This document shows, in pieces, positions 30,134-37,595 of a DNA stretch of 64,000 nt (its first letter is position 1; each line of letters starts with the position of its first letter). Source of the DNA: Rhodohalobacter mucosus (GTDB lineage Bacteria; Bacteroidota; Rhodothermia; Balneolales; Balneolaceae); the NCBI RefSeq assembly GCF_003150675.1, contig NZ_QGGB01000002.1:434001-498000 (forward strand), in the 5' to 3' direction. The position numbers and the translations under genes are program-made. Below the pieces are notes generated by a model. It worked only from the letters and a program-made list of their open reading frames with translations. It did not search any database and had not been told where the DNA came from.

Positions 30134-31438
30134 TCACATTCTGAGAAGCCTTTTTCTTAGCAGCGCAAGTCCCGGATTGCCCGGAGCTCCCAGGTGGCTG
30201 TACTGTTCTAAGCGAATATCCCGGGGTACTGCATCCTCATGTTTGAGCTCAGCGGCAACCCTGCGGTAGGCTTCCCTGAAAGACAGTCCCTCGTCGCGCA
30301 CCATGGCATTGGCTTTCTCAGCTGCAAATATTTCGTATGAGCAGGCCTTTCTACATGCTTCCCTGTCGGGCCTTACAGAACGAATCAACAGTTTTGCAGC
30401 TTCAAGCAACTCTGAGGTTTTATCTATTGCTTTCAGCACCGGTTCTTTTGTGAGTTGCAAATCGCGGTGATAACCGCTGATAAGATTGGCGGAAACCGTT
30501 TGCAGCGTTGATGCGCAGCCAACCACAACAGAATGCCCGCCCCTGATCAGCTCTGCAACGTCCGGATTTTTCTTCTGAGGCATGATTGACGAGCCGGTGC
30601 AAACACTAACGTCCAGATCAAAAAAGCCGTAGGCCTCGCTCGAATACTGGATTATATCGGATGCGAGCCTGTTAAGCACGGATGTGATTCCTGCCAGAAA
30701 CTGAACAAGCTGAAGCTCCACCCACCCCCTCGAAAGCTGTGCCGTGGTGGCGCAAATCAGCGGCCCTTCAAAACCCAGAAGTTCCGATTCGTAAACCCGG
30801 TCAATATCAAATGTTGTTCCAAATCCCGCTGCGGTGCCCAGGGGAGACCTGTTAATCAGTTTCTGTATGCCGGCTGCCGATTCGGCCTGCATTATAAGCA
30901 TTTCAGCAAAACCTCCGGCCCAAAGCCCGATTGTGCTTAACATTGCCTTTCGGGTGTGGGTATATCCGGGCAAAAGAACCTCCCTGTTTTCTTCAGCAAG
31001 GCCAAGCAATTCATCTGCACAGCCTTTAACCATTTCCAGTATGTCTCCCAACGTCTCTTTTTCATAGAGCCTCATGGCGGTGAGCACCTGGTCGTTTCTG
31101 GATCGCCCTGCATGGATCTTACGCCCCAGCTCCCCCAGCTGTTCGGACAGATGATTTTCGATGGCGGTATGCATATCCTCATCCTCAATCCGGATGACAA
31201 ATTCACCCTTTTCCCAGATGTTAAGTATCCTGTTTAGTGCTTTTTCCAGTCGCTTATTTTCATCTGCGGTGATGACTTTTGCTTTCAGCAGTGCTTTTGC
31301 GTGGGCAACAGATCCCTTAACATCGCAGGGAACCAGTCTTTGATCCAATTCATAATCATTGCCAACAGTAAAAGCCTCCACTTTTTTTGCTGCATCCGAA
31401 TCAGTGTCCGTGGTTTTTTTTTGCCAAAGCTTTGACAT
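30134..31438 (-). CDS. argH: Argininosuccinate lyase
   Basis: This 434-residue protein catalyses the last step of arginine synthesis, argininosuccinate to arginine + fumarate. It carries the superfamily signature GSSIMPQKKNPDVAEL with the catalytic serine (near residue 280), GRSRNDQVLTAMRLY, and GYTHTRKAMLSTIGLWAGGF (usually GYTHLQ.AQP...). The TH in this motif matches the general-acid region. The C-terminus is the normal short helical domain. It is the most distal gene of the argF-argG-(S9 peptidase)-argH series, all on the minus strand, with a 178-base gap before it that contains short word repeats at 31456-31493. Confidence 0.94.
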   Translation of the reverse strand: MSKLWQKKTTDTDSDAAKKVEAFTVGNDYELDQRLVPCDVKGSVAHAKALLKAKVITADENKRLEKALNRILNIWEKGEFVIRIEDEDMHTAIENHLSEQLGELGRKIHAGRSRNDQVLTAMRLYEKETLGDILEMVKGCADELLGLAEENREVLLPGYTHTRKAMLSTIGLWAGGFAEMLIMQAESAAGIQKLINRSPLGTAAGFGTTFDIDRVYESELLGFEGPLICATTAQLSRGWVELQLVQFLAGITSVLNRLASDIIQYSSEAYGFFDLDVSVCTGSSIMPQKKNPDVAELIRGGHSVVVGCASTLQTVSANLISGYHRDLQLTKEPVLKAIDKTSELLEAAKLLIRSVRPDREACRKACSYEIFAAEKANAMVRDEGLSFREAYRRVAAELKHEDAVPRDIRLEQYSHLGAPGNPGLALLRKRLLRM

Positions 31439-31616: not shown

Positions 31617-33644
31617 CTAATTCGCCATCGACGGATCCAATCCATCCTGACCCTTCACGTATTTGCCAAACCACTGCAGATATCGTTCATACCGGTCTTT
31701 CTGAAACGCCGGCCGCCTTATGCCGTGATGCTCACCGGGATAAACTACAAGAAGCGTTTCCCTGCCCAGCCGTTTCATGGCCTGATACATCTGTTCCGAA
31801 CCCAGAATCGGTACATTCCAGTCTTCGGCTCCTCCAATCCATAGCGTAGGCGTTGTGATATTTGCGACATCATTGAATGGTGAAATGCGTTCCCACTTTT
31901 CGGGTGTTTCCCATGGAAGCCCAAGCTCCATCTCCCAGTGAAGCTGATAGTGATCATGGCCGTAATTGGACCGGTACAGCGTTTCGCTGGCACCGGAAAT
32001 GGCTCCCTCAAAACGATCTGTTTTGGTTATCACATAGTTGGTAAGGATACCTCCGTACGACCATCCCCCAACGCCCAGACGTTCAGGATCCGCAATTCCG
32101 CGTTCAACAGCATAATCAACGGCTGCCATCACGTCTTCATAATCCTTGTTTCCCCAATCCGCAAAAAGCACTTCAGAGAATGCCTGTCCATATCCGGATG
32201 ATCCGCGCGGATTTACCATCAGTACCGCATAGCCGTTGGATGCAAAGAGATGGGGTTCAAATCTGAAACTATGCTCGAACTGTGCTACGGGACCGCCATG
32301 AATCCAAAGCAGTGTCGGCACACGGCTGCCCTCGCGGTATTCAACCGGTTTGACCAGGAATCCATGAATTTCCGTGCCGTCTGCGCTATTGAACGTGATC
32401 TCTTCCACGTCGGGCATTTTAAGTCCGGAAAAAAGCTCTTCGTTGGCTGACGTAAGCCGGTTCAGTTCTCCGTTTTCGTATGTATAAATATCTTCCGGGC
32501 TGCTGAAGTGCGCAATCGTGAGGGCAGTTACAGGTCCTTGCTGGTCAAAAGCTCCCACACTCAGGTCCCCCTGCACCTCGCGGCGAAGATCACTTCCGTT
32601 TACGCTAACCGAAGCGAGCTGGCTCTCCCCTGCGTCCTCAAGAACAAACCGGATTCTTGAGCCATCTTCCATAAACTCCGGGCTGCTGATATTTCTGTCG
32701 ATATATTCAGTAAGTACACGCTCCCCGCCTGATCCGTCAGCAGATGCAATCGCAAGATGGTTGGTGGCATACCAGATCTTGTCGGGTTCGATACTGCTTA
32801 CATACGCAATCCGGTCTCCTGAGGGGCTCCAGGACGGTGAGTGATCACTGCCCGGATTTTTTGAAACCTGAACCAGCCCGCCATCTTTTTCACCCGTTCC
32901 GGCATCAACCACCCAGATATCCGTATTGAAATTTCCATCCGGATTTTCGGTTCTGTTGCTTGAAAATAAAATCCGTGTACCGTCGGGACTCCATTTTGGA
33001 GATGAGTGGTCATAATCGCCGTAGGTAAGCTGAACCGCCGAAGTATCGCCGGGAGTAAACGCATATATATGAGTTCTGCGACGGTCGAGATATCCGGTGT
33101 AATCTCTCTTGAATTGCCGGCGGTCAATTACATATGGTTCCGGGTCGCCCGACTCGTTTTCATCCTTATCCTTTATTAAGAGAAGCAGCCGGCTTCCGTC
33201 AGGGCTCCATTGGTACCCTGACACTCCCTGTTCAATATCCGTCAGCTGCTGTGCCTCTCCTCCGCGCCGGTCCAGCACCCAGACCTGGGTTTTTTCTTCC
33301 TCACCCCGCGAAGCGGTAAATGAAAGATATGATCCGCCGGGACTCCATTGGGGATCGCCGGCCGAATACCCTTTTGCTGTCATTGGCAGCGGCTCTCCGC
33401 CATCTACCGATACCATCCAGATTCTCGTTTCCGTTTCATCCTTCTCAAAGTCGGTGGTTCTCATTGTATAGGCAATCCACTCTCCATCCGGACTAATTAC
33501 AGGATTTCCAACATCTTTCAATTGAAAATAGTTATCGATCGAAAGAAGTTTTTGCGAGCCACTTTGAGCAGATACCTGCGGTAAAAAGAGAAAAAAGCTA
33601 ACGAAAAACAGGACTGCTGCACGGGCTTTCAGCGGCATATTCAT
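31617..33644 (-). CDS. Exported S9 family serine peptidase (dipeptidyl/acylaminoacyl peptidase type)
   Basis: This 675-residue protein has a signal peptide (MNMPLKARAAVLFFVSFFLFLP...SAQS), a beta-propeller of WD40-like/TolB-like repeats (IWMVSVDGGEPLPM, SPDGTRILFSSNR) from about 35 to 400, and a C-terminal alpha/beta hydrolase. The catalytic triad is visible as GGWSYGG (Ser), GAEDWNVP (Asp) and PGEHHGI (His). It degrades short peptides in the periplasm. It lies between argG and argH on the same strand. The peptides could feed amino acids into the cell, but a functional link with arginine is not shown. Confidence 0.94.
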   Translation of the reverse strand: MNMPLKARAAVLFFVSFFLFLPQVSAQSGSQKLLSIDNYFQLKDVGNPVISPDGEWIAYTMRTTDFEKDETETRIWMVSVDGGEPLPMTAKGYSAGDPQWSPGGSYLSFTASRGEEEKTQVWVLDRRGGEAQQLTDIEQGVSGYQWSPDGSRLLLLIKDKDENESGDPEPYVIDRRQFKRDYTGYLDRRRTHIYAFTPGDTSAVQLTYGDYDHSSPKWSPDGTRILFSSNRTENPDGNFNTDIWVVDAGTGEKDGGLVQVSKNPGSDHSPSWSPSGDRIAYVSSIEPDKIWYATNHLAIASADGSGGERVLTEYIDRNISSPEFMEDGSRIRFVLEDAGESQLASVSVNGSDLRREVQGDLSVGAFDQQGPVTALTIAHFSSPEDIYTYENGELNRLTSANEELFSGLKMPDVEEITFNSADGTEIHGFLVKPVEYREGSRVPTLLWIHGGPVAQFEHSFRFEPHLFASNGYAVLMVNPRGSSGYGQAFSEVLFADWGNKDYEDVMAAVDYAVERGIADPERLGVGGWSYGGILTNYVITKTDRFEGAISGASETLYRSNYGHDHYQLHWEMELGLPWETPEKWERISPFNDVANITTPTLWIGGAEDWNVPILGSEQMYQAMKRLGRETLLVVYPGEHHGIRRPAFQKDRYERYLQWFGKYVKGQDGLDPSMAN

Positions 33645-33813: not shown

Positions 33814-35100
33814 CTAAACTTCTGCTGTTTTCATAGAATCCTGCTTCTGAACATCCTTCTTCAGCTGATAGGCTGTTTTCTGGGGTAGATTCCAAAGTTC
33901 AATAAATCCTGCAGACGCATTCTGATTGAACGCTGCTGATTTATTAAAGGTAGCAAGGTTCTCATCAAACAGAGAGTAGGGTGATGTAAGAGCCACCACA
34001 CCACAGTTGCCTTTATAGAGTTTCAGCGTCACTTCACCTGTCACCTTTTTATTCTGTTCGTTGATGAATGCGCGTATGTTGTCCATCACCGGCTCAAAGT
34101 ATTTTGCGCCATATGTAAGGTAAGCCCATTTCTGGTCCATGAATCCTTTCAGCTCGTTCTCTTCGCGGGTTGAAACCAGCTGCTCCAGGTTTTTATGGGC
34201 CTGAATCAGTATTGTGGCGGCAGGGTTTTCGTAGACGCCCCGCACCTTCAGTCCAACCACACGGTCTTCGATGAGGTGAAAAACGCCAACGGCATGTTTC
34301 CCTCCGATTTCATTCAGCAGCAGAATCAGGTCTTTTCTGCTGTATTCAGCGCCGTTGAGGGAGACCGGTACGCCCTGATCGAATCCGATTTTTACCAGTT
34401 CGGACTCATCGGGTGCCTGTTCGGGAGTATTGGCCCATTTCAGAATATTCTCAAGGGGCGGAATTAGCTCCGGATTTTCAATTTCTCCACCTTCACCGGT
34501 ATTGGCCCACATGTTCTCATCGTATGAGTAGGGGCTTTTCTGGGTTTGGGAAACGGGGATTCCGTTCTTAATTGCGTATTCGATTTGCTCGTCCCGTCCC
34601 ATGCTCCACTCTCTGACAGGAGCAATGATCTTCAGATTCGGATTGAGCGTGGTAATATAGCCCTCAAACCGCACCTGGTCATTACCTTTTCCGGTGCAGC
34701 CATGGGCTATCACCTCACAATCATATTCCCCTGCAAACCGGACGGCCAGCTGCGAGATCATCACCCGTCCCAATGGACAGCCCAGTGCATATCCGCCCTG
34801 GTAGTCTGCATTTGCTTTGACGGCTTCGGTGCAGAGTTCTGCAAACTCCTGCTTTGCGTCATATACAATGGCATCCTTAGCGCCGAGATTGATCGCTTTC
34901 TGTTTGATGGCTTCAAGATCATCAGCTGTCTGGCCGATGTTGACGGTCAGTGCAATCACATCGCATTCGTACTCTTCCCGGATCCATTTCAGCATCATGC
35001 TTGTGTCCAGTCCGCCCGAGTAGAGCAGCAGACAGGTGCTGAATGTTCCTTTTTCCGCTTCGTGTGAGGCTACTTTTTTGTATGTGGTTAGATTTTTCAT
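33814..35100 (-). CDS. argG: Argininosuccinate synthase
   Basis: I start the gene at MKNLTTYKKV (35100), 428 residues. The frame is open 26 codons further back, but that part lies in palindrome-rich intergenic sequence and is not family-like. The enzyme joins citrulline and aspartate with ATP. It has the pyrophosphatase P-loop LLLYSGGLDTSMM (near 27-36), TVNIGQ, the citrulline/aspartate-binding GCTGKGNDQVRFE and QKSPYSYDENMWANT, the latter being the usual SIDENLWGRS-like region. The N-terminus is about 20 residues longer than in many homologues. Transcribed after argF, with a 262-base repeat-rich gap between. Confidence 0.94.
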   Translation of the reverse strand: MKNLTTYKKVASHEAEKGTFSTCLLLYSGGLDTSMMLKWIREEYECDVIALTVNIGQTADDLEAIKQKAINLGAKDAIVYDAKQEFAELCTEAVKANADYQGGYALGCPLGRVMISQLAVRFAGEYDCEVIAHGCTGKGNDQVRFEGYITTLNPNLKIIAPVREWSMGRDEQIEYAIKNGIPVSQTQKSPYSYDENMWANTGEGGEIENPELIPPLENILKWANTPEQAPDESELVKIGFDQGVPVSLNGAEYSRKDLILLLNEIGGKHAVGVFHLIEDRVVGLKVRGVYENPAATILIQAHKNLEQLVSTREENELKGFMDQKWAYLTYGAKYFEPVMDNIRAFINEQNKKVTGEVTLKLYKGNCGVVALTSPYSLFDENLATFNKSAAFNQNASAGFIELWNLPQKTAYQLKKDVQKQDSMKTAEV

Positions 35101-35116
35101 GGTTTTGGACTCACCC

Positions 35117-35158
35117 CCTGCCTGCAGGCAGGTCTGTTCCCCTTCCGCCAGCTGGCGG
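35117..35158. repeat. Two perfect palindromes in the argF-argG gap
   Basis: CCTGCCTGCAGGCAGG (35117-35132) and CCGCCAGCTGGCGG (35145-35158) stand 12 bases apart, just upstream of argG on its strand. They could fold into hairpins in the argF-argG message. Confidence 0.7.
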
Positions 35159-35231
35159 ATAGAGAGGGAGGACTTCATTGCAAAGCCGGAGGTTGGTTTA
35201 TGGTTTTGGATTATTTTGGAATTTGGTTGTA

Positions 35232-35394
35232 GAAAATCCCCTCTGGAGAGGGGATAGATTGCGGAGCGTTCAGCGGAGCAATCAGGGGTGTGTTCGCGGT
35301 TGGCTCAAAGCCCGGCGCTTGACACACCCCTCGCTAACCGAATCGCGCTTTGCGCTTTCGTTTTAGCTTTCCCCTCTCAAGAGGGGGATTTCAA
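35232..35394. mobile_element. Fold-back MITE-like element overlapping the 3' end of argF
   Basis: The ends are inverted copies: left AATCCCCTCTGGAGAGGGGA (about 35235-35254), right inverted AATCCCCCTCTTGAGAGGGG (about 35370-35390). Inside are a perfect 10-bp stem AGGGGTGTGT/ACACACCCCT and GATTGC/GCAATC. Everything nests into one long imperfect hairpin of about 160 bases with no coding capacity. The right end supplies the last codons of argF (FEIPLLRGES). Confidence 0.65.
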
Positions 35395-36349
35395 ATGCTC
35401 CTTTTGTTTCAATTTCCTTGGTCTCCCCCGCCAGAATCGTTGCGAAAACTCCTTTCGAGACTATCATCCGGTTCTGGGCCTGGCTGTACACCCACGAATT
35501 GGGATGGTCGATCACCTCGTCCGTCACTTCCACCCCCCGGTGTGCGGGAAGGCAGTGCATGAATCCCGTACTGCTTTTTGCTTTAGAAAAAAGCGCCCCG
35601 TTCACCTGATAAGGCTGGAAGTGCTTTATCTTTTCGTCGAACAAGTGCTCTTCACCCATCGAAATAAACGTGTCTGTGTAGATCACATCCGATTCAAAGA
35701 CTGCTTCAACGGGATCAGCCGTCTGCAAAAACGTACCCCCGTGTTCTGCAGCAAGAAACGAGAAGTATTCCAGCTGGCCTTCATTCCATGAATATTCGGG
35801 CGGGCCTGCAAATTTGAGCGTATGACCGAACTTCAATCCGATTTCGATAAGCGAGAACGCCACATTGTTGGCATCACCCACATAGCTTATGACCAGACTT
35901 TGCTCTTTACCGTATTTCTGTTGAAGGGTGTAAAGGTCAGCCAGCGCCTGCATAGGATGATGCTGGTCGCAAAGTGCATTTACGACGGGTATCGTCCCGT
36001 ATCCTGCAAGTTTTTTCAGTGTGGCATGGTTATAGACCCGTGCAAAAATAGCATCGCACCACTGAGAGACATTCATCATGGCATCTTTCAGTGATTCCCG
36101 GCTTGTAAACGGCACGGCCATGCTGCTTGAAAAAATGAGATCCGGGTTGATTTCAATCACCCGCCCACCCAGATGATTTATGGCTGCTTCGGTACCGACT
36201 CTTGTTCTGAGGGACGGCTTTTCGAAGACGAATGCAATATTTTTTCCTTGCATTACGGGCTCAGGGCTTTGGTGCAATTTATCACTCAGGTCGAGTATGT
36301 TTTGTATCTGACCCGGTTCAAGGTCGCCTATGGTTAACAAATGGTTCAT
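35363..36349 (-). CDS. argF: Ornithine carbamoyltransferase
   Basis: This 328-residue enzyme makes citrulline from ornithine and carbamoyl phosphate. The carbamoyl-phosphate site is FEKPSLRTRV (normally STRTR; Thr is Leu here), followed by HHPMQALADLYT and GDANNVAFSLIEIG. The ornithine side is YTDTFISMGEE and the catalytic loop FMHCLPAHRGVEVTDEV. It lacks the proline-rich insert of the succinyl/acetylornithine transcarbamylases of some Bacteroidota, so I call it the ornithine enzyme. The C-terminal tail after ILAGE (about 18 residues) is encoded partly by the end of a fold-back repeat. It lies about 100 bases after a leader-peptide attenuator. Confidence 0.93.
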   Translation of the reverse strand: MNHLLTIGDLEPGQIQNILDLSDKLHQSPEPVMQGKNIAFVFEKPSLRTRVGTEAAINHLGGRVIEINPDLIFSSSMAVPFTSRESLKDAMMNVSQWCDAIFARVYNHATLKKLAGYGTIPVVNALCDQHHPMQALADLYTLQQKYGKEQSLVISYVGDANNVAFSLIEIGLKFGHTLKFAGPPEYSWNEGQLEYFSFLAAEHGGTFLQTADPVEAVFESDVIYTDTFISMGEEHLFDEKIKHFQPYQVNGALFSKAKSSTGFMHCLPAHRGVEVTDEVIDHPNSWVYSQAQNRMIVSKGVFATILAGETKEIETKGAFEIPLLRGES

Positions 36350-36451: not shown

Positions 36452-36487
36452 AAAAAAAGCCCACTCAGTTTTAAATTGAGTGGGCTT
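36452..36487 (-). terminator. Attenuator terminator in front of argF
   Basis: Minus strand: AAGCCCACTCA (36487-36477), 9-base loop, TGAGTGGGCTT (36467-36457), continuing into a run of seven Ts (36458-36452). The 11-bp stem is perfect. It lies between the leader-peptide stop and argF and nothing else is transcribed into it on this strand, so its purpose must be to stop argF transcription. Confidence 0.9.
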
Positions 36488-36534
36488 GTGATAAATCCCG
36501 GTAGTTTACACTACACACACTGTATCACACGCCC
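36482..36534 (-). promoter_or_regulatory. Antiterminator pairing of the arg attenuator
   Basis: GGGCGTGTGATA (36534-36523, including the leader stop codon) is complementary at 11 of 12 positions to TATCACAAGCCC (36493-36482). The last six bases of the latter are the 5' arm of the terminator. The two structures exclude each other. A ribosome at the leader stop codon would cover the first arm and favour termination; one stalled at the first Arg codons would leave it free. Confidence 0.75.
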
Positions 36535-36587
36535 CAGGGGCGGCGACGGCGAAGAGAAAGAGTCGGTGTGTGTGTATTTAATTTCAT
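36525..36587 (-). CDS. Arginine leader peptide (20 residues, RRRR)
   Basis: Start codon at 36587-36585, stop TGA at 36527-36525. The peptide reads MKLNTHTPTLSL, then four arginines in a row (codons CGC CGT CGC CGC), then PWGV. It sits 175 bases upstream of the argF coding region with a strong terminator and an antiterminator pairing in between. This is the design of amino-acid leader peptides such as those of trp, his and leu operons, here with arginine as the sensed residue, which fits the genes behind it. No clear Shine-Dalgarno sequence is visible, as is common in this phylum. A longer frame runs through it from the right (to 37082), but that is antisense to the HsdR-N-like gene. Confidence 0.8.
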   Translation of the reverse strand: MKLNTHTPTLSLRRRRPWGV

Positions 36588-36671
36588 GGCTTGTAAATTG
36601 CACCTTTGAAAAAAAAGATCCAAATCTTTTTTTAGCGCTTTTTGAGCCGCCATTTTTTGTATTTTTTGAAG

Positions 36672-37595
36672 ATGAAAAGTGTCGTAACTCCCCATTTTCC
36701 CCGCATCGTCTTCGAGAAGAATGAAAAACTTCTCTACAACCCTGTCCTCAAGAAACGATTTGTCAACCGTCCCGAGGAGCGCGTGCGCCTGCGCTGGGTT
36801 GAATATATTCTCAACCAGACTGATCATCTTAAATCGCGTATAGGCTTTGAACTTCCTGTTGCGCTCCCGCAAAAAGAGAATCAGCTTCGCGCCGATCTTA
36901 TTCTGTATACTCGTGACATGAAACCTCTGGCCCTGATTGAGTGCAAGGCTCCCTCTGTACGCCTGTCGCAGTCGGTGGCTGAACAGGCAGCCCGTTACAA
37001 TACGGCCGTCGGAGCGCCCTATATCTGCCTGACCAACGGCATTACCGACTTTTGGTTCAAAACAGACAGTGAAAAGCAGCATTCATCCGAATCGCCTCTG
37101 AACGAAATCGCATCACCAGACGAATTGAACATTCTGCGCGACAGTGCATGGTGGGCATCCCGTGGTTTTCTGTCCGATGAATCCGCCACACCGCTTAACA
37201 AGCGTTTGGTTGAGATTATGAATTATGCCATGTCCCTGGATGAAGAGCTAGATATTCGATATCTCAATTTTAAAGATTCACCCCTGCCCTACGGTTTGAA
37301 TCACTACTTTGCCCTTTTAAGAATGGACGCCGAATACAAGCTGGCCATTACAATCATGGGGAAAGAGGGAGAAGACCCCATTCTTGCAGCGATACTGAAC
37401 CGCGCGGGGAAAAATGAGGGACTGCTGATCATCAACCTTACAAAATGTTCGATGCAAGAGGCTGACTCAGGCCATCTGCTTGTGGCAGGTGATGAGAGTG
37501 TTTTTCCGGCCCACAACAAGCTTCCGATATTTACACATCGCTTCAATCCCAGCATTGTTGATAACCTTCCGGCTTTTCTGATGCGGTTTTTTTGA
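36672..37595 (+). CDS. Protein with type I restriction enzyme HsdR N-terminal nuclease-like domain
   Basis: Start at MKSVVTPHFP (36672), 307 residues; an ATG 10 codons earlier adds an unlikely hydrophobic stretch. The N-terminal half is a PD-(D/E)xK-type domain of the HSDR_N_2 group: RPEERVRLRWVEYIL, then QLRADLILY and LALIECKAPSVRLSQS, where D, E and K of the D-x(n)-ExK motif are visible. ICLTNGITDFWF follows. There is no helicase part and no methylase or specificity gene near, so this is a free-standing member, common in Bacteroidota, with unknown role. The C-terminal half is not recognised. It is divergent from the arg leader with only 84 bases between the two starts. Confidence 0.85.
   Translation: MKSVVTPHFPRIVFEKNEKLLYNPVLKKRFVNRPEERVRLRWVEYILNQTDHLKSRIGFELPVALPQKENQLRADLILYTRDMKPLALIECKAPSVRLSQSVAEQAARYNTAVGAPYICLTNGITDFWFKTDSEKQHSSESPLNEIASPDELNILRDSAWWASRGFLSDESATPLNKRLVEIMNYAMSLDEELDIRYLNFKDSPLPYGLNHYFALLRMDAEYKLAITIMGKEGEDPILAAILNRAGKNEGLLIINLTKCSMQEADSGHLLVAGDESVFPAHNKLPIFTHRFNPSIVDNLPAFLMRFF

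Follow-up and report, generated by a model that had tools for sequence, protein, structure and literature searches.

The argF gene in the window (the whole 64,000-nucleotide stretch of Rhodohalobacter mucosus DNA analysed here) is preceded on the minus strand, at 36452-36587, by what we read as a classical ribosome-mediated transcription attenuator, one that senses charged tRNA-Arg and controls argF, argG, a peptidase gene and argH. We put the probability of this reading at roughly 0.88. The kind is known, attenuation of the trp and his type; the arginine specificity appears new, the distribution is broad, and a response to arginine is what the architecture predicts. Three of the downstream genes, argF, argG and argH, make the amino acid that would be sensed. 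The gene order argF, argG, peptidase, argH given by the first-pass annotation is borne out by NCBIfam matches, in which these three of the four genes pass the equivalog cut-offs, and the four genes are probably co-transcribed. The genes around the leader are:

35363..36349, minus strand: argF, ornithine carbamoyltransferase (TIGR00658, 303.5 bits, cut-off 280.85)
33814..35178, minus strand: argG, argininosuccinate synthase (TIGR00032, 453.3 bits, cut-off 268.2; NF001770 also passed)
31617..33644, minus strand: peptidase, Dpp5-like (258.2 bits, far under the cut-off of 900)
30134..31438, minus strand: argH, argininosuccinate lyase (TIGR00838, 300.7 bits, cut-off 279.5)
36642-37595, plus strand: HSDR_N gene (restriction-like N terminus), divergent from the leader (HSDR_N match)

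The leader region holds a short ORF followed by a series of pairing segments:

36525..36587, minus strand: leader peptide ORF of 20 codons, MKLNTHTPTLSLRRRRPWGV (from the sequence; start position kept in relatives)
36568..36576, minus strand: outer helix segment A, TACACACAC, near the start of the ORF (MFE, family covariation)
36540..36551, minus strand: four Arg codons in a row, CGC CGT CGC CGC (codons 13-16), the proposed stall site (from the sequence)
36538..36547, minus strand: arm 1 of the proposed protector hairpin 1:2, in the Arg and Pro codons (MFE fold)
36523..36534, minus strand: arm 2, GGGCGTGTGATA, beginning at the third base of the Trp codon and running past the stop codon (MFE fold, duplex permutations)
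36512..36520, minus strand: outer helix segment D, GTGTGTGTA, past the stop codon (MFE, family covariation)
36482..36493, minus strand: arm 3, TATCACAAGCCC, the antiterminator partner (2:3 duplex permutations)
36457..36487, minus strand: intrinsic terminator hairpin 3:4, 11 bp and perfect, with a loop of 9 (sequence, covariation)
36452..36458, minus strand: seven consecutive Ts, of which two are also stem bases (from the sequence)

Read from 36587 downward, codons 1-12 of the leader ORF are ATG AAA TTA AAT ACA CAC ACA CCG ACT CTT TCT CTT, and codons 13 to the stop are CGC CGT CGC CGC CCC TGG GGC GTG TGA. The first-pass annotation had described a 20-codon ORF with four successive Arg codons, complementarity of 36534-36523 to 36493-36482 at 11 of 12 bases, and a terminator of 11 perfect base pairs and seven Ts that shares six bases with the antiterminator partner; all three descriptions are exact, base by base. 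The six bases at which arm 3 and the terminator 5' arm overlap are 36487-36482; the 5' arm, AAGCCCACTCA, runs from 36487 to 36477, the loop from 36476 to 36468 and the 3' arm, TGAGTGGGCTT, from 36467 to 36457. Two further elements of the MFE fold had gone unnoticed: 36547-36538, in the Arg and Pro codons, pairs with 36534-36524 as a protector hairpin, and the outer helix A:D closes around that hairpin. Arm 2 can pair alternatively with arm 1 or with arm 3. A sequence of the form CGC CCN NNG GGC G makes the hairpin CGCCC-NNN-GGGCG, which offers a reason for the Pro codon after the Arg run.

Both the structure and the codon run stand out from background. The minimum free energy of the 161-nt stretch is -49.4 kcal/mol (z -3.68), which is equalled by 0 of 200 dinucleotide shuffles. 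A search of both strands of the 64-kb window for short ORFs with four identical residues running and a terminator-like site after them (17 such sites) gave this one alone. Upstream of the leader the reading frame stays open, with no in-frame stop in the upstream sequence examined; in the other 24 of the 25 distinct leaders of the family (Balneolaceae), an in-frame stop lies 11 to 93 codons ahead of the Arg run. A 185-aa ORF in the leader frame (36525-37082) was discarded; it lies antisense to the HSDR_N gene.

In the mechanism that we propose, RNA polymerase would transcribe the leader with a ribosome trailing behind it. When tRNA-Arg is charged, the ribosome would clear the four Arg codons, arrive at the stop codon and mask arm 2; arm 3 would then join arm 4 as the terminator, and transcription would end ∼100 nt ahead of argF. 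When arginine is scarce, the ribosome would halt once Arg codon 1 or 2 of the run is in its A site and mask arm 1, leaving arm 2 free to form 2:3 before arm 4 exists, with readthrough as the predicted result. If the leader is not translated, arm 1, aided by the outer A:D helix, would sequester arm 2, and termination would win.

The leader recurs ahead of argF in relatives. Within the family, 28 of 92 genomes encode ArgF, at 29 places, of which 26 are readable (at least 500 nt upstream), and all 26 readable upstreams (25 distinct sequences) have an RRRR-containing leader and a terminator. The other three places are cut by contig ends; two of them (L007, L016) still show the terminator, and the third (L027) has 4 nt. 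Every one of the 25 distinct family leaders has a run of 4-5 Arg codons, all of them CGN, and 24 have an in-frame ATG 11-13 codons before the run, with GTG instead in L022. A class-wide search with the ArgF profile matched 41 of 244 genomes; the match is strong in 37 (38 places) and weak in four. Nine genomes with strong matches lie outside the family, in two other families of the order, and an Arg leader with terminator is present in all eight readable upstreams (G094 is cut at 46 nt), with Arg runs of 4 in three, 3 in four and 2 in one (G099). Order-wide, then, all 34 readable upstreams (33 distinct) combine the Arg run with a terminator that has a T-run and with a potential 2:3 pairing (-11 kcal/mol or better). 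Conservation of the Arg codons and of the alternative stems was the check that had been proposed with the original annotation; it gives a positive answer in these 34 argF upstreams, with both 2:3 and 3:4 covarying.

The leader does not precede every carbamoyltransferase gene. No Arg leader with terminator was found ahead of the four weak matches (G103, G104, G106 and G114, at L185-L188, one cut at 330 nt), nor ahead of an ArgF 55% identical to that of the window on contig CALIGR010000030.1 (L047), labelled Gracilibacteria. Genome G038 has the leader-argF-argG cassette twice, at L026 and L029 (G038:C2 and G038:C17), and the two copies score equally; record LKNA01000003.1 (L030), labelled Chitinophagaceae, is probably mislabelled. 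A relict was found in G043, in which there is no ArgF or argG match: at the corresponding place (L079, G043:C17:50647-50787) the leader MKFYGNILLMHTRRRRCLLGM and its terminator are kept. Upstream of this relict lie the window's neighbours, pepP (81% identical), the hsdR-like gene and the next ORF (69%), and the gene directly after it, for a TonB receptor, is 42% identical to its counterpart behind the window's argH. It looks as if the operon was lost from this genome and the leader left behind.

Pairing between the arms is maintained across these leaders. Since the MAFFT alignment A1 misplaces some arms, we used alignment-free duplex permutations, on 34 leaders: 25 from the family, eight from the other families of the order and the relict L079, with L029 omitted as a duplicate of the L026 leader. 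For 2:3, the duplex energy is -17.16 kcal/mol for a leader's own arms versus -14.22 kcal/mol for cross-species combinations, and 0 of 20000 permutations are as good (6/20000 for the nine non-family leaders alone). The terminator arms give -19.28 versus -11.87 and the outer A:D helix -11.14 versus -8.55, again with 0/20000 across all 34 leaders in each case. The A:D result also holds in the family (0/20000); in the nine non-family leaders, where 7354/20000 permutations are as good, the helix is unsupported.

We also scored the arms on an alignment, A4 (33 rows), which replaced A3 (40 rows), seven of whose rows were antisense terminators. A4 had been fitted to the pairings 1:2 and 3:4 without regard to 2:3. 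On it the terminator has 93.1% of cells paired versus 77.0% after shuffling, and 55 double-change cells versus 13.4 (0/500). The 1:2 core CGCCC:GGGCG, which is nearly invariant, is paired in 92.5% versus 87.9% (0/500; 33 leaders). For 2:3, 80.6% of cells are paired versus 73.8% shuffled (0/500) and at most 58.6% when the arms are slid, and there are 19 double-change cells versus 8.6 (0/500); two of the five covariation measures are not above shuffles, as pairs with a double change number 4 versus 4.3 and further pair types 15 versus 13.4 (128/500). Sequence conservation centres on the Arg codons and the arms.

The annotation had argued that the geometry works, in that a ribosome at the first Arg codons leaves the antiterminator arm free and one at the stop codon covers it. 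We simulated folding of 33 leaders (the relict was left out) masking a ribosome footprint of 30 nt and ending the RNA before arm 4, and scored 2:3 as formed at 4 or more expected pairs. The folds agree with the proposed geometry: 2:3 forms in 33/33 leaders with the first Arg codon (R1) in the A site, in 32/33 at the second, 22/33 at the third, 9/33 at the fourth and 0/33 at the stop codon, this last figure being largely an outcome of masking arm 2. In the simulation without a ribosome, 2:3 still forms in 10/33 leaders. A stall nine codons ahead of R1 frees 2:3 in 30/33; specificity thus depends on the scarce codon being that for Arg. For the window's leader folded at full length to equilibrium with the ribosome at R1, the terminator probability remains 0.85; antitermination would therefore have to be kinetic.

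Arginine leaders also occur ahead of argG, a wider distribution that had not been noticed before. The argG gene is present in 194 of 244 class genomes, and we read 40 class argG upstreams, hand-picked across families, for a short ORF with three Arg in at most 5 residues followed by a terminator-like hairpin. Such an Arg leader with terminator is found in 24/40 (the two finders, taken separately, give 20 and 14). The argG-type leaders differ from the argF type, with peptides such as NRRRRFRRRL, SRRLRRVRRL and TRRRARRVRRL. In 25 argG-type leaders (the 24 plus L091), duplex tests support pairing of the segment before the Arg codons with that after them (1:2; -27.16 versus -19.95, 0/20000) and of the latter with the 5' side of the terminator (2:3; -23.83 versus -17.83, 0/20000). 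The control pairing 1:3 shows no effect (-11.86 versus -11.83, 9421/20000), so base composition is an unlikely cause.

These results bear on whether the window's structure could be a mere terminator of upstream transcription or a small RNA, with the ORF incidental. The terminator is the strongest feature of the leader, and seven weak model matches elsewhere (L085, L087, L089, L092-L095), which we rejected as leaders, look like chance plain terminators. The covarying 2:3 arms and the Arg specificity of the ORF speak against this explanation, as does the count ahead of argG, where 24/40 compares with 3/40 or fewer for each other residue and 4/40 for Arg on the reverse strand; we give it hardly any credence.

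In the remaining 16 of the 40 class argG upstreams there is no Arg leader with terminator. Two of these are contig ends (L099, L100), L112 has a terminator without an Arg run, L122 has an Arg-rich ORF for which no terminator was called, and L138 has argR; in most of L101-L104 and L107-L110 there is another long ORF ahead of argG, and L130, L136 and L137 also belong here. The proposal to search upstream of argF, argG and argC thus succeeds for argF and for argG of the class and fails for argC of the window's genome, where no Arg leader of this type is found in the upstream region. The window's genome also has a Trp leader, MRKNNVNRIWWWPGLT, with a terminator directly before an anthranilate synthase I gene (Pfam) at L078 (G000:C3:270696-270842), and WWW leaders resembling it occur in G100 and G101. 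The class has two groups of ArgG, one at ∼E 1e-130 that is mostly with the argF cassette and a weaker one (∼1e-106 and above) elsewhere; the two groups suggest that the argFGH cassette was acquired separately.

Outside the class, we examined argG upstreams in 46 hand-picked genomes of the phylum. An Arg leader with terminator was found in 2/46, which is at noise (Leu, 3/46), and these two matches (L140, L175), at the same level as other residues, were set aside. When a terminator was not required, in a set of 38 loci (eight from the class and 30 from the phylum, mostly with another long ORF ahead of argG), an ATG-initiated short ORF with clustered Arg codons ended 20-350 nt before the long ORF at 13/38; the residue with the next highest count is Ala, at 4/38. 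Examples are L107-L109, which end in RRR and a stop codon, and L150 and L151, which end in RRRP and a stop codon. The long ORF matches a GNAT acetyltransferase model in two of the four cases tested (L108 and L151, not L109 and L149). Arg-run short ORFs for which no terminator was called are seen at L104 (only the end lies in the stretch), L107-L109, L142, L143, L147, L150, L151 and L164, and L147, L150 and L151 have a common hairpin with the loop TAGGTGAGTCC.

The peptides themselves raise a different explanation, in which the nascent RRRRPxG, or free arginine or ornithine, arrests the ribosome in the manner of the fungal AAP or TnaC, rather than a shortage of charged tRNA-Arg. The fungal AAP is a eukaryotic upstream peptide at which free arginine causes a peptide-dependent stall and translational repression of an arginine gene; it is like the window's leader in being an upstream peptide on an arginine gene, and differs in being eukaryotic and translational. 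RRRRPxG is indeed kept in most argF-type family leaders, but Ser replaces Pro in one genus (RRRRRSGV; L005, L008, L012, L013), where the bases still allow CGCC:GGCG, and with the hairpin bases kept despite Ser, conservation of Pro can follow from RNA pairing. Moreover, the argG-type leaders have Arg runs in common (RRRRFRRR, RRLRRVRR, RRRARRVRR) and no obvious shared peptide, and a ribosome stalled late in the peptide would mask arm 2 and favour termination. An arrest peptide is thus quite improbable here.

Leader-peptide attenuators of the trp, his, leu, thr, ilv and phe operons are established in Proteobacteria (the trpL type). The window's attenuator is like them in its run of end-product codons in a short ORF, its 2:3 and 3:4 hairpins with a putative 1:2, its T-run terminator and its biosynthetic operon. 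It is unlike them in being specific for arginine, in having no Rfam match and in its occurrence in the Balneolaceae and in a class nearly without ArgR; family leaders also have the outer A:D helix, which spans most of the ORF. Neither the locus nor any of 16 related loci scores above threshold with an Rfam 15 covariance model, each set having one unrelated match below threshold. This bears on whether the stretch is a metabolite riboswitch, a T-box or a protein-bound attenuator, with no role for the short ORF. It is strongly structured, as such an element would be, but the absence of any Rfam family above threshold and the centring of conservation on Arg codons and arms, which counts against an ORF-free riboswitch or T-box, leave this explanation with very little weight.

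An arginine leader had been described in the annotation as little known or not described. There is no Rfam family, and in the open-access literature that the search covered we found no leader peptide for arginine biosynthesis. The nearest cases are related in part. In the Salmonella speF leader, a run of Arg codons in orf34 is reported to sense arginine and ribosome pausing to alter the mRNA fold, with Rho-dependent termination, RNase G decay and occlusion of the RBS, and with no intrinsic terminator found by its authors (PMC6386406). Like the window's leader it has consecutive Arg codons in an upstream ORF; unlike it, orf34 governs ornithine decarboxylase, not arginine synthesis. For the arginine- and pyrimidine-related carAB/carA operon of Pseudomonas, PMC4997734 proposes attenuation at a stem-loop leader; unlike the window's case, it ties attenuation of car in P. 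aeruginosa to pyrimidines with ArgR involved, and reports that P. syringae carA showed no start codon from which a small leader peptide could be made. PMC1262725 mentions arginine T-boxes; they and ArgR/AhrC do the same physiological job, but the window's genome is without ArgR domains and the locus without a T-box match. Flavobacterium psychrophilum, of the Bacteroidetes, is said to give 'strong clues' for leader peptides before amino-acid biosynthesis operons, and in the section excerpted the conserved 5' elements named include pheA and hisG and do not include arginine (PMC9723704). A statement from 2010 held that leader-peptide systems, ermC apart, were unshown outside Proteobacteria and Actinobacteria (PMC2965389), and the excerpts of PMC8632094 and PMC4833913 hold nothing on arginine synthesis past a carA motif.

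Bacterial arginine control is usually described as repression by ArgR/AhrC. The window's genome (assembly 97% complete) has neither the C- nor the N-domain of ArgR (PF02863, PF01316), and PF02863 is found in 1/244 class genomes (1/162 among those at least 90% complete); the same search is positive in 8/14 control genomes. The single exception, G152, encodes a protein with both domains just upstream of argG, and in the 1.15 kb upstream of its argG (L138, G152:C181:2713-2880) there is no Arg leader with terminator. Among the 46 phylum genomes outside the class, ArgR is present in 18, and in 17 of these it lies within 1 kb upstream of argG; those 17 genomes, with argR just upstream of argG, have no such leader. 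The Arg leader apparently stands in for ArgR. An unrecognised protein regulator might still dominate, with the leader serving for fine-tuning: our search for regulators covered ArgR domains, and in E. coli trp a repressor and an attenuator are combined. Given that the ArgR C-domain is missing from 243/244 class genomes and that the one exception has argR beside argG and no Arg leader with terminator in the 1.15 kb examined, we consider this unlikely.

Taken more widely, leader-peptide attenuation may be the general arginine control of the whole class (Balneolota plus, by inference, Rhodothermota) and of part of the wider Bacteroidota, reciprocal to ArgR and in at least three architectures, a view for and against which we see the chances as evenly balanced. 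The three would be the argF type; the argG type, in which the Arg codons lie between segments 1 and 2; and a type lacking a terminator, found ahead of argG operons whose first gene is acetyltransferase-like. This last type would have to be read out in some other way.

For this class of bacteria, in which the ArgR C-domain occurs once among 244 genomes, arginine is apparently sensed by ribosome stalling instead. The leader, the exceptional genome with argR beside argG and the argR cases of the phylum form a natural series for the replacement of one regulatory logic by another. The finding offers an annotation for short ORFs that gene finders often drop, and it would extend the amino acids sensed by biosynthetic leader-peptide attenuators to arginine, for which there is as yet no Rfam model.
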